Origin: Alphaproteobacteria bacterium
GTDB lineage: Bacteria > Pseudomonadota > Alphaproteobacteria > RF32 > CAG-239
Reading direction: 5' to 3'
DNA length: 64,000 nucleotides
Assembly (NCBI GenBank): GCA_017480745.1
Contig: JAFUSA010000019.1
Span: 1-64,000 of the forward strand
Shown: in pieces, positions 53,211 to 62,225 of the stretch
Layout: each line of letters starts with the position of its first letter
Position numbering within the stretch: the first letter of the stretch is position 1
Notes under the pieces: model-generated
What the model saw: the letters and a program-made list of their open reading frames with translations, nothing else
Told to the model about the DNA's origin: nothing
Database searches by the model: none
Made by a program: the position numbers and the translations under genes

Positions 53211-53900
53211 TTATTTTTTAAACCCGATAGCAAAGTAATTATTATTGCCATCTGCACAAATTTTGGTTGCTTGCTCTAAAGATATTTCCGTAATCGGACT
53301 GTTTGGTCCGGCGGTAATGTAAGTAGAGTTATCGGTAGTGCCTAAACCTACTTTTGGACCATCATATAGACCGATCACTAAATCTGCATCAGTTGTCACA
53401 GCTACATAATAAAAGCCGGCGCCGGTGATTGAACTCCAATCCTGTGTTGCCAGTTCAATACAAGCCTCTTGCGGAAGATGGTCGTATCGTTGATAAAATA
53501 CCTTATTATCTGTTCCGCTTAATGTTCCTATATCTCCTACACCTCCAAATTCATTATTTATGGTAACTCCACCTTGTTTTGAAGTAAGCATTTCGTCTGG
53601 AACTAATTTTGCTTTTTTGATAATAGAGCAACCGCTTCCGTTACAATCATTCAACGTACCACTACTACCTAAATTACAACTACATTCAATTCCATCATAA
53701 TTTTTCTGCGAACCGAAAAAAGCTTGCACATTGGCGGCAATCAAACTGATTTGTTCAATGGTTTTGTTTATGCGATATTTCATCATCGCCTTTGAATATC
53801 CGGCAATTCCACCTACCGATAAAACGCCGATGATAGCCAGCACGCCCAACATTTCTATCATTGAACGACCTGTTTCATTTTTTAGATTTAAGTTTTTCAT
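53211..53900 (-). CDS. Type IVb-like prepilin 5
   Basis: A 229-residue prepilin without REP insertion: NLKNETG|RSMIEMLGVLAI. Thr precedes the Gly where others have Ser. The C-terminal domain has EACIELATQDW and EISLEQATKICADGNNNYFA, plus ECSCNLG and NGSGCS near the N-terminal third. The ATG at 53900 follows GGGAGATAAAATT; the in-frame TTG upstream is less likely. Confidence 0.8.
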   Translation of the reverse strand: MKNLNLKNETGRSMIEMLGVLAIIGVLSVGGIAGYSKAMMKYRINKTIEQISLIAANVQAFFGSQKNYDGIECSCNLGSSGTLNDCNGSGCSIIKKAKLVPDEMLTSKQGGVTINNEFGGVGDIGTLSGTDNKVFYQRYDHLPQEACIELATQDWSSITGAGFYYVAVTTDADLVIGLYDGPKVGLGTTDNSTYITAGPNSPITEISLEQATKICADGNNNYFAIGFKK

Positions 53901-54170
53901 AATTTTATCTCCCAAATTAGAGGTTAATACACTAAAACAAACTGACCGCTAAACAGCGGTCGGGAGAGCTGACAAATCATACTAAGTGAAACGATTTTCG
54001 CAAATCTTTAAGCTAAAGCTCTGAACATCCATTTGCGACTCCCCGACCCAAATCGGAGATATTTATCATATCAATAACGATGTTCTAACAACACCGCACT
54101 TAGTAAGAGCCTGTCAGAGCTCCGAACCAAAGTTCTGATTCTATTATAACATAACCTTCTTAAATGTCAA
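53901..54170 (-). promoter_or_regulatory. Promoter and structured leader (type B) of prepilin 5
   Basis: TTGACA (54170-54165) and TATAAT (54148-54143), a consensus promoter. GAAC-TTTG-GTTC hairpin, then GGAGCTCTG. Long-range stems: 54117-54112 with 53974-53969 (CTGACA/TGTCAG) and 54104-54097 with 53988-53981 (ACTAAGTG/CACTTAGT). The terminal hairpin is GACCGCT/AGCGGTC. Confidence 0.8.
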
Positions 54171-54215: not shown

Positions 54216-54929
54216 CTAAACAGCCTGTTTTATCAAATCTTTGATAATTTCACCGGCCATGAGCAAACCGACAACCGGCGGCACAAACGACACACTTCCC
54301 GGAGTTTGCCGCTTTCCGTTTTCACCGGAGCAAACCGATGGTTTCAAAGGCGTTTCTTTTGAATAAACTACCTTAATATGTTCAATTCCACGTTGTCGCA
54401 ATTCTTTACGCATAACTTTTGCCAAAGGACAAACCGTTGTATTACTTATATCGGCAACCTCAAACGCAGCGGCATTTAATTTATTGCCTGCACCCATGGC
54501 ACATATAATCGGAGTGTTGGCCTTGTGCGCCTGTTCAACCAAAGCAATTTTACCGGCTACCGTATCAATAGCATCGGCCACATAATTATATTGTTTAAAG
54601 TCAAATTGTGCCGCATTTTCCGGTAAATAAAAGCATTGATAGGTATTAATAACAATTTCCGGATTTATATCTTGCGCCCGAGCTTTGGCAACCTCAACTT
54701 TCGGTAATCCTATTGTTGAATGCAAGGCAATTATCTGCCTATTGATATTGCTTAAACTCACAACATCATTATCCACCAAATCCAAAGTACCGACACCGGC
54801 ACGAGCCAGCGCTTCAACCACATATCCGCCGACACCGCCGACACCAAAAACAGCAACTCGGGATTCTTTTAATTTTTTTAGTGCCGATTTACCTAACAAT
54901 AACTCACTACGCACAAATTGATCAGTCAT
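54216..54929 (-). CDS. tcdA: tRNA threonylcarbamoyladenosine dehydratase (ThiF/MoeB-like)
   Basis: A 237-residue E1-like enzyme with VAVFGVGGVGGYVVEALARA (ATP site), DLVDNDVVSLSNINRQ and a conserved VGLLMAGEIIKDLI C-terminus. The TcdA/CsdL branch dehydrates t6A37 to its cyclic form. The CxxC zinc pairs of MoeB are absent, which favours TcdA. It overlaps anmK by 8 bp. Confidence 0.85.
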   Translation of the reverse strand: MTDQFVRSELLLGKSALKKLKESRVAVFGVGGVGGYVVEALARAGVGTLDLVDNDVVSLSNINRQIIALHSTIGLPKVEVAKARAQDINPEIVINTYQCFYLPENAAQFDFKQYNYVADAIDTVAGKIALVEQAHKANTPIICAMGAGNKLNAAAFEVADISNTTVCPLAKVMRKELRQRGIEHIKVVYSKETPLKPSVCSGENGKRQTPGSVSFVPPVVGLLMAGEIIKDLIKQAV

Positions 54930-56318: not shown

Positions 56319-58142
56319 TCATCGTGTAGCTAAAATCAACGCAATAACGGATATCACAAACAATATTTCCCATCTCTTTTTAATCTGTAAATTTTTACGT
56401 TTAAACTCAAACATTTTTATGTGTTTACTGATAAAAATAATCCATAAAAAAGTCGTATATACAATACAAACGACATAAGCCGGATTTTCAGCATAATACA
56501 TCGCCAAACTCTTGAATATCATAACAGACAATAATAACACAAATATCAGACTTTTACTAAGCATTTTACAATCAAATAAATCCTTTAATCGCAATTTTTT
56601 TCTGATATATATAATTATATGCACCAAACCAATAATCAAACTAAGTATCCAAGTGCGCCAGACAGCACAAATAAGCTGATTTTCTCCGGAATAAGACATA
56701 ATCATTTTATTTAAAACAGATATCCCGGAACTTAAAAATAAAACCGGAATAAGAAGAATAAATGCCTTCCTGCTTAAATCAGTTTTACGATAATTGAACA
56801 AAGCGTACATAACTCCGCATAGAGCCAACAATATCATTAAAGTATTTAAAGGATTTTCCGTATATTTTTCAATGATTGATGTATCAATAAGACACCATGC
56901 AAAGAAAATTATAATAACCGAAAACGGCGTAATTGAACTTACAGTCTCACTACCATATGTTCTATTTATACGAAAAGAAAGATAATCCGTATATGCTACA
57001 ATACCCCCCTGTAATACTGACATGATATAAAAATTCGTTGGAAACAGCACCGGATTGAACAATAGAAAGGGTAATAATATAATTGTTATACTCCACCCCC
57101 TATACAACATAAATACATTGGCATTGATTTTAACATTTTGGGCAGAAAGATAGTAAAACGCACTTATTATTGATGCAAATAAGGCAAAGACAATCCATAT
57201 AGATGATTTTTCCTCATCGCTATATTGAATTTTAATATGAGAAATAGGAGATATTTTATAATATTTTTTCCAAAGTTCGTATCCGTAAGCATTTCTATAG
57301 TGCCATGGTTTTTTTTGATTGGTTAAATGCACTATTGCAGCGTTTTGCATATTAACATCTTCATCTAAATCAAAAAATGATTTTATTTCATCTGCACTGA
57401 ATTTTAATAAATTGCTTCCCATCCAATTATATTTAGGACTAAGAAACAAAACATTGTCATTAAATATGGCGTTCAGACAGTCTTGATCCATAAATGCGCG
57501 TCTGTCTTTATATTCTTTGTATTCATATAATTTTTGCACAACATTATCTTCACGCATTTTTTTGAGATTCAATAGCATCATTCCGGAATTAAAATATTTT
57601 TTTAATCCAACTTTCCCTTGACAATCATCCACCATGCAAGCCATATCTTTTACAACTGCTGCATAGTGATTTTGTAAATCTGTTTCCAATAATTCCGTCA
57701 AATCACTTTGGATAATCATATCAGCATCAAGATATAATATTTTATCTTCTTTTTTAAAAATATCCGGTAAATCAAATTTTGAAAGAGCGGCCGCACTTAC
57801 ATAATGATGCGTTTTATCATATCTTTTTAAAGCATTTTTATGCTCTATTAATTTGCAACCGGTCTTTGATAATAAATTTTTATTTTCGTCTGTAAGATTA
57901 TCGAAGACTACATAAATTTTTTTTACATTGGTGTTCTTTTTCAGAGATGTTATAGCTACAACTGTCGGTAAAACGTAATTATTATCGGTAATAAACACAA
58001 CATCAGTCTCAGAAGGATATTCCTGCTGCGAGAGCGGCATAAAATGTGTGTGGGGGGAGGTAAAGCTATCGGAAGAAATCGCCGGCCAAGCAAACAGCGA
58101 AAAAACAACCGATAAAATCCACATAAAAAATTTTTTTATCAT
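56319..58142 (-). CDS. GT8-like glycosyltransferase fused to a DMT/EamA-type membrane domain
   Basis: A 607-residue protein in three parts. Residues 1-24 are a signal peptide or signal anchor (FFMWILSVVFSLFAWPAIS). Residues ~35-295 form a GT8 domain: VVFITDNNYVLPTVVAITSL, the metal-binding DADMI (DxD), FNSGMMLLNL, DQDCLNAIF and VHLTNQKKPWHYR (the HxxxxKPW site). From ~305 there are about ten hydrophobic helices like DMT-superfamily transporters (EamA/NST type). By the signal the GT8 part would be periplasmic, where nucleotide sugars are normally lacking. ATG at 58142 follows AGGATACGGAT. A single gene between anmK and ileS. Confidence 0.7.
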   Translation of the reverse strand: MIKKFFMWILSVVFSLFAWPAISSDSFTSPHTHFMPLSQQEYPSETDVVFITDNNYVLPTVVAITSLKKNTNVKKIYVVFDNLTDENKNLLSKTGCKLIEHKNALKRYDKTHHYVSAAALSKFDLPDIFKKEDKILYLDADMIIQSDLTELLETDLQNHYAAVVKDMACMVDDCQGKVGLKKYFNSGMMLLNLKKMREDNVVQKLYEYKEYKDRRAFMDQDCLNAIFNDNVLFLSPKYNWMGSNLLKFSADEIKSFFDLDEDVNMQNAAIVHLTNQKKPWHYRNAYGYELWKKYYKISPISHIKIQYSDEEKSSIWIVFALFASIISAFYYLSAQNVKINANVFMLYRGWSITIILLPFLLFNPVLFPTNFYIMSVLQGGIVAYTDYLSFRINRTYGSETVSSITPFSVIIIFFAWCLIDTSIIEKYTENPLNTLMILLALCGVMYALFNYRKTDLSRKAFILLIPVLFLSSGISVLNKMIMSYSGENQLICAVWRTWILSLIIGLVHIIIYIRKKLRLKDLFDCKMLSKSLIFVLLLSVMIFKSLAMYYAENPAYVVCIVYTTFLWIIFISKHIKMFEFKRKNLQIKKRWEILFVISVIALILATR

Positions 58143-58258
58143 ATCCGTATCCTGAAGAAATAAAAATAGCAAAAATATCTACCACATCACAGATATTATG
58201 AAACCGATTTAATGTAAAGATTAAAGTAAAAAATATGCAATTTTTGCCTCATACCCTC

Positions 58259-61604: not shown

Positions 61605-62225
61605 TTAGTAGAATTTAAACCAAATGGTATTGCTGCCACTTATACAAGCATTTGTTGCAATATTAATCGGCATTGGTATTGATAATTTAGATCCTCCTAA
61701 ACATGCAGTTGCCATATTAGTACCTATCATTCCCTTGCAACCAGTATATTGATTCCGATTGTAAGAATTTATCCCCATAGCAAATAACCCAGAATCAGAA
61801 CTCCAATCATAGCTTGCAATCGCAATACAAGCTTCCTCCGGTATATCTCTGATGGTTATAGAAAATGCTTTATAATCAGAGTATTTCTCCTTCTCTGCCC
61901 AAGCAACTTCAAAATATCCGTCAAATGAATGTTTAATAAACCCATCCTCATCAAATTTCATTCCGTTCGGTAGTAAATGAGCTTTTTCAAATACATTCTT
62001 GTTCATTTTACTCCAACCAACATGATAATAGCTTGGTTGGTTATGAAAAAAAATACGAACATTTTGCGAAATATGTGTAATCTGTTCTATGGTCTTGTTA
62101 ATCTTTATTTTCATCATTGCTTTAGAATAGCCGGCGATACCACCAACACTAAGCACTCCGATAATAGCCAATACTCCCAGAATTTCTATCATTGAACGTC
62201 CGCTTTGATGAGTATAATTTTTCAT
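61605..62225 (-). CDS. Type IVb-like prepilin 6
   Basis: A 206-residue prepilin with a short leader (MKNYTHQSG|RSMIEILGVL), the shortest of the set, and no REP insertion. The helix ends KAMMKIKINKTIEQI rather than KYRINK. The C-terminal part has EEACIAIASYDW and PMPINIATNACISG, with an added Cys pair (YTGCKG, TACLGG). Confidence 0.8.
   Translation of the reverse strand: MKNYTHQSGRSMIEILGVLAIIGVLSVGGIAGYSKAMMKIKINKTIEQITHISQNVRIFFHNQPSYYHVGWSKMNKNVFEKAHLLPNGMKFDEDGFIKHSFDGYFEVAWAEKEKYSDYKAFSITIRDIPEEACIAIASYDWSSDSGLFAMGINSYNRNQYTGCKGMIGTNMATACLGGSKLSIPMPINIATNACISGSNTIWFKFY

Follow-up and report, generated by a model that had tools for sequence, protein, structure and literature searches.

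The window, the 64,000-nucleotide stretch of DNA that was analysed, contains on its reverse strand a gene (56319–58142) that encodes one protein of 607 amino acids plus stop, consisting of a signal-like N-terminus, a GT8 glycosyltransferase domain and a ten-helix domain predicted to have the DMT fold. The gene is a single frame that runs from an ATG at 58142 to a stop at 56319–56321 and has no internal stop. An AGGA (58150–58153, reverse strand) lies 7 nt 5′ of the ATG and, judged by its sequence, probably serves as a Shine-Dalgarno-like site. The next in-frame ATG, M35, lacks an AGGA-type site, and a start there would drop the signal. The protein begins MIKKFFMWILSVVFSLFAWPAISS, which is signal-like by inspection. 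K3 and K4 precede a hydrophobic core, the 15 residues that follow the core include no K or R, and hydrophobicity over 15 residues is 2.13; this segment (residues 1–23, 58074–58142, reverse strand) also has an A-x-S and is presumably cleaved. The GT8 domain follows at residues 48–282 (57297–58001, reverse strand). Within it, alignment to LgtC locates a DxD motif, D139-A-D141 (57720–57728, reverse strand), which we take to be the metal/nucleotide-diphosphate site, as DxD is in GT8. Residues 283–312 (57207–57296, reverse strand), between the Pfam match and the helices, make up the GT8 tail and the linker to the first helix. The ten-helix domain, delimited by its hydrophobic segments and a structural model and N-out/C-out by charge, takes up residues 313–607 (56322–57206, reverse strand), with the ten hydrophobic segments at about residues 316–606; R348 and K479 are among its invariant residues. 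The halves of the fusion have G+C contents of 31% and 30%, each of the flanking genes 41%, and near-equal halves that differ from their flanks argue against a chimeric assembly. This one-chain anatomy of signal, GT8 and ten helices in a gut alphaproteobacterium is well supported. Elsewhere in the window, two genes (53211–53915 and 61605–62225, both reverse strand) encode pilin-like proteins with the near-identical N-terminus GRSMIEMLGVLAIIGVLSVGG. Proteins of this kind also occur at L060, L214 and L221, these genomes having several such paralogues.

PF01501 matches residues 48–282 with an E value of 8.1e-44 and 150.5 bits against a curated cut-off of 24.3. In an alignment to LgtC (1g9r, 8.8e-21), the DxD, FNSG, DQD and KPW regions are conserved. 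The GT8 domain proposed in a first-pass annotation of this DNA is therefore confirmed by its Pfam match and looks active by its motifs, and the N-terminal signal proposed alongside it is supported, as a signal-like start, by K3 and K4, the hydrophobic core and the AGGA before M1. We class the N-terminal part as a GT8, for which retaining transfer from a nucleotide sugar is the predicted activity; GT8 enzymes use nucleotide sugars as donors. The fused protein is the sole GT8 in its genome, and the nearest GT8 relatives among those read have no N-terminal signal. Since this is so, and since the membrane part has stand-alone relatives, we do not consider the fusion to be chance. The same genome has nine GT2 matches. 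Six of them begin at the domain, without an anchor, and a seventh, L296, has membrane segments followed by an internal domain; the other two are L294 and L295.

For the membrane domain, an AlphaFold run on 11 sequences gave one good model out of five (pLDDT 74.5, pTM 0.65), the other four being poor. With the good model, the best Foldseek match was LicB (2.4e-4) and nucleotide-sugar transporters came next, at about 3e-3. VIA-align returned Z scores of 23.4 for TPT, 23.2 for LicB, 23.1 for SLC35B1, 19.8 for Vrg4, 18.4 for CST and 17.9 for YddG. DMT structures occupy the ranking down to Z 17.4, followed by a drop to 8.9 for the next unrelated fold. TPT, LicB and SLC35B1 tie at about 23, and the match is to the DMT superfamily as a whole. 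The membrane part is accordingly modelled as a DMT fold with ten helices. Because DMT structures top the matches of the model, the earlier guess at this superfamily was right at the level of the fold. The fold does not favour its narrower description, a nucleotide-sugar-transporter-like domain, over other members of the superfamily, and this description has no counterpart in sequence. None of 20 members of the family gave a convincing Pfam or NCBIfam match, and the DMT families of Pfam (EamA, TPT, UAA and Nuc_sug_transp) had no match in any of the 20. The family profile, A1, had no matches among PDB sequences and no significant hhalign match to four E. coli EamA-type proteins, four sequences making a thin profile. 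Across the Pfam, NCBIfam and PDB-sequence searches, no sequence relationship to any nucleotide-sugar transporter was found. As its DMT fold comes with an inverted pattern of charges and without any match in sequence, we do not class the membrane part as a nucleotide-sugar transporter. The label EamA family was rejected as well, as there is no Pfam match and the charge orientation is opposite.

To predict orientation, a script set ten segments by dynamic programming and counted K+R per loop according to the positive-inside rule. The count covered 64 relatives of at least 285 aa, with six of the 70 carrier loci (<285 aa) left out. In the family, loops 1-2, 3-4, 5-6, 7-8 and 9-10 hold a mean of 16.9 K+R versus 4.0 elsewhere, and the N-out pattern occurs in 64/64. 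In the fused carrier, the odd loops have 23 and the even loops 5. The same script assigned N-in to all four E. coli control proteins, RhtA, YddG, EamA and YedA. From this distribution, the carrier family is predicted to be N-out/C-out, the reverse of the EamA type. A carrier oriented in this way would place the GT8 domain in the periplasm and fits signal-led export. The signal-like start and the carrier charge, which lie in separate regions of the chain, predict the same topology. The claim that the GT8 lies outside the cytoplasm finds support in predicted charge topology, and we consider a periplasmic GT8 domain likely from the charge pattern, the N-terminal sequence and the start site, although the Cys content of this GT8 does not speak for it.

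The membrane family is present in 62 of 153 genomes of the order, which we take to be RF32, including that of the window (E ≤ 1e-25), and in 23 of 385 genomes of the class (E ≤ 1e-10). The other matches listed in the order all fall in open frames of 254–350 aa and hence stand alone, as do those in the class in all but the window. A search for homologues of the fusion therefore yielded stand-alone relatives and, among the 153 order and 385 class genomes, no second fusion, so that the fusion is seen in one genome only. Those relatives that have names come from MAGs of Alphaproteobacteria, in several cases of ruminant origin. Most carriers have a context without a glycosyltransferase, several of them in a suf operon; the names anmK, ileS, tcdA and suf are presumptive, given by eye from sequence. 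Many stand-alone carriers (L095, L096, L098, L100, L107, L116 and others) have a sufS-like gene on one side and a DUF59-like gene on the other. At L093, L097, L099 and L114, a stand-alone carrier is directly 3′ of a same-strand gene for a sulfatase labelled EptA-like, a label that rests on a Pfam sulfatase match. Enzymes of the EptA class use membrane lipids as donors, and the adjacency is a hint that the carrier family may take part in transfer reactions in the periplasm. In four genomes of the same genus (L087, L089, L091 and L124), a stand-alone carrier adjoins a ThiF-like gene, and a ThiF-like gene (54216–54929) also lies two genes downstream of the fusion. With this neighbour in common, the fusion may have taken the place of a carrier that was resident there.

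In a tree of 70 family members, the window groups with G185 and G191 (support 100/99), the former being 63% identical to the window. In G185, a TOD1/MUCI70 glycosyltransferase-like gene with an N-terminal helix (PF04765, 3.4e-12) is 25 nt upstream of the carrier. In G191, a GT2 gene, again with an N-terminal helix (PF00535, 4.3e-36), is 7 nt upstream. The enzymes linked to this clade are thus a fused GT8, a TOD1/MUCI70 and a GT2, each with a signal or anchor segment, a grouping that was noticed post hoc and comprises few cases, three. At the other 67 carrier loci, a glycosyltransferase adjoins in one (G002), on the opposite strand; seven query proteins were used in this neighbour check, so families unlike them could be missed. 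The G002 neighbour is a GT2 that has an N-terminal helix and is free of Cys over its 397 aa. For TOD1/MUCI70, the analysis covered 30 loci from 35 matching places. Hydrophobicity before the domain is 3.08 in G185 and at most 1.86 in the other 29 (L197, possibly non-coding), making the G185 partner the only homologue among the 30 with a clear N-terminal helix adjoining the domain. In both G191 and G096, the gene 5′ of the anchored GT2 encodes a protein of about 104 aa that bears a signal (L060 4593–4904 and L214 592–900), and that of L060 has no Pfam match.

GT8 and GT2 enzymes that are anchored and poor in Cys turn up repeatedly in related genomes, not all of which have this carrier. An N-terminal anchor was found in 8 of 60 GT8 places, a hand-picked set with the match near the domain start that leaves out at least four fitting ones and partial matches. 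An N-terminal helix was present in 15 of 30 GT2 loci listed from a much longer match list, and 12 of these 15 come from one genus (g3). Net charge favours N-in for 19 of 22 anchored glycosyltransferases, often by a small margin, in a count that left out five similar GT2s (L160–L164) and the G002 GT2. Cys content of the catalytic domain is 0.39% in anchored versus 1.65% in other GT8s (p 2e-5) and 0.16% versus 1.46% in GT2s (p 3e-6), p values that are too small because relatives were treated as independent. The TOD1 domain of G185 has two Cys, the fewest of 30. A pair of Cys is common to four of the eight anchored GT8s, in two alignment columns that contain no Cys in the 52 other GT8s. Tandem pairs of anchored GT8 genes occur at L282 (3702–5662) and L283 (3747–5659), and in each the first member has a stem-like region together with the Cys pair at the columns that are Cys-free in the 52 non-anchored GT8s. 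A general poverty of Cys in the exported proteins of the lineage was considered and rejected (14 signal-like versus 230 other proteins of these stretches, p 0.15). As these control proteins show no significant difference, the contrast among the glycosyltransferases is only suggestive. Anchored glycosyltransferases are also found in genomes that have no carrier at E ≤ 1e-5 (G024, G102, G104, G106 and G184).

The computed observations are the fusion, a GT8 with its motifs, a DMT fold, a charge pattern opposite to the EamA type and the linkage of the sister carriers to anchored glycosyltransferases. The best explanation, which we adopt tentatively, is a two-part inner-membrane protein that combines an exported GT8 with a carrier for its own donor. 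The N-terminal signal would export the GT8 domain to the periplasm, and the C-terminal ten-helix carrier, N-out/C-out, would move the donor from the cytoplasm to the periplasm. The donor would most likely be a UDP-sugar, exchanged for a nucleoside monophosphate or phosphate, and the tethered GT8 would then transfer the sugar to a glycan or protein of the envelope. In this explanation, we infer signal cleavage, the identity of donor and acceptor and the direction in which the donor is carried. That the fused carrier would supply the donor is the most economical reason for both the fusion and the three different linked glycosyltransferases, a suggestion we again make with reserve. Against donor export, the GT8 of the window is not Cys-poor, with 4 Cys (1.56%), as in non-anchored GT8s; anchored glycosyltransferases also occur in carrier-less genomes; and most carriers have no linked glycosyltransferase, some being in a suf operon and four beside EptA-like genes. 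A search of the 5_nucleotid_C family found no exported 5′-nucleotidase, the only such protein in the genome having no signal.

The GT8 could instead be periplasmic and act on a lipid, with the membrane part serving, like ArnE/ArnF or GtrA, to flip a donor or acceptor that is a lipid or is linked to one. The four stand-alone carriers 3′ of EptA-like genes fit this reading, as do a GtrA-like protein in the G185 operon, close to which a GT2 gene runs in the opposite direction, and another in the genome of the window, which suggests that lipid-linked sugars probably exist there too. GT8s use nucleotide sugars, however, the DxD is conserved and the fold matches at Z 17–23 are carriers of solutes, phosphate esters and nucleotide sugars, which leaves lipid flipping rather unlikely. 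Alternatively, the membrane domain of a periplasmic GT8 could be an anchor or a carrier of an unrelated metabolite, and the donor would be obtained otherwise or the enzyme would act outside the cell. This would agree with a family found mostly in contexts free of glycosyltransferases and with anchored enzymes that have no carrier. It is unlikely in view of the three closest carriers, each tied to a different anchored glycosyltransferase, which an incidental anchor does not need, and of the single helix that is enough to anchor other glycosyltransferases. A cytoplasmic GT8, with an N-terminal segment that is no signal or a start at M35 and a carrier that is N-in like EamA, would account for the Cys content of the domain and for a donor that is generally cytoplasmic. 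The N-out charge (23 to 5 in the window, 64/64 in the family), the AGGA that precedes M1 and is lacking before M35, and K3 and K4 before a hydrophobic core that is followed by 15 residues without K/R make it improbable. We found neither a cytoplasmic N-terminus nor a flippase of lipid-linked sugars with its glycosyltransferase on the cytoplasmic side, the arrangements that would have spoken against the first reading. Its occurrence in one genome only would suit a fusion that arose recently and may have no function, or one produced by misassembly, but both are very improbable, given an in-frame junction, halves of equal G+C, intact motifs and a contig of 124,955 bases.

Taken together, our results support the first-pass annotation in part: they favour the signal-like start, GT8 motifs, DMT fold and topology, whereas the membrane part is a putative transporter of nucleotide sugars. 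They go beyond it in the inverted orientation, the anchored glycosyltransferases linked to sister carriers and an order-wide repertoire of anchored enzymes. The two-part protein, an exported GT8 with its own donor carrier, raises the possibility of a wider Golgi-like scheme, in which periplasmic, type-II-anchored GT-A enzymes (GT8, GT2 and TOD1/MUCI70) would be fed nucleotide sugars by inverted DMT carriers, the window being the single-chain case; we regard this scheme as somewhat doubtful. In textbook bacterial glycan assembly, nucleotide sugars stay in the cytoplasm and lipid-linked sugars are used outside. If a carrier is indeed joined here to an exported enzyme that depends on nucleotide sugars, the fusion would break this rule and be a bacterial counterpart of Golgi glycosylation. 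It would also make periplasmic nucleotide sugars directly testable on one protein of 607 residues. We found no precedent for such a fusion in open-licence PMC papers, a scope in which absence is weak evidence.

Among known systems, LgtC and other GT8s have the same Pfam family and the same DxD, FNSG, DQD and KPW regions as the fusion, whereas the signal-like N-terminus and the fused ten-helix domain are found only in the latter. LgtC is an enzyme of the cytoplasmic side. EamA-type exporters (YddG, EamA and RhtA) have the ten helices and fold in common with the fused carrier (Z 17.9 for 5i20, presumably YddG) but the opposite charge orientation. The choline importer LicB, the best Foldseek match (2.4e-4, Z 23.2), has no glycosyltransferase domain, and the likeness observed is one of fold. 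SLC35 proteins (Vrg4, CST and SLC35B1) and TPT have the ten-helix DMT fold in common with the fusion at Z 17–23 over most of the domain, but no detectable sequence similarity. Their known members are N-in, whereas the fusion is N-out/C-out by charge, and in contrast to SLC35 only its carrier is joined to a presumed client enzyme. The type II glycosyltransferases and nucleotide-sugar transporters of the Golgi resemble the fusion in an N-terminal signal or anchor, a predicted non-cytoplasmic catalytic domain and a DMT-fold carrier. In the Golgi, transporter and glycosyltransferase are separate proteins, whereas the fusion is bacterial and has the carrier, with its putative transport, in the same polypeptide; it may be likened to the Golgi system in its working, not counted as a member.
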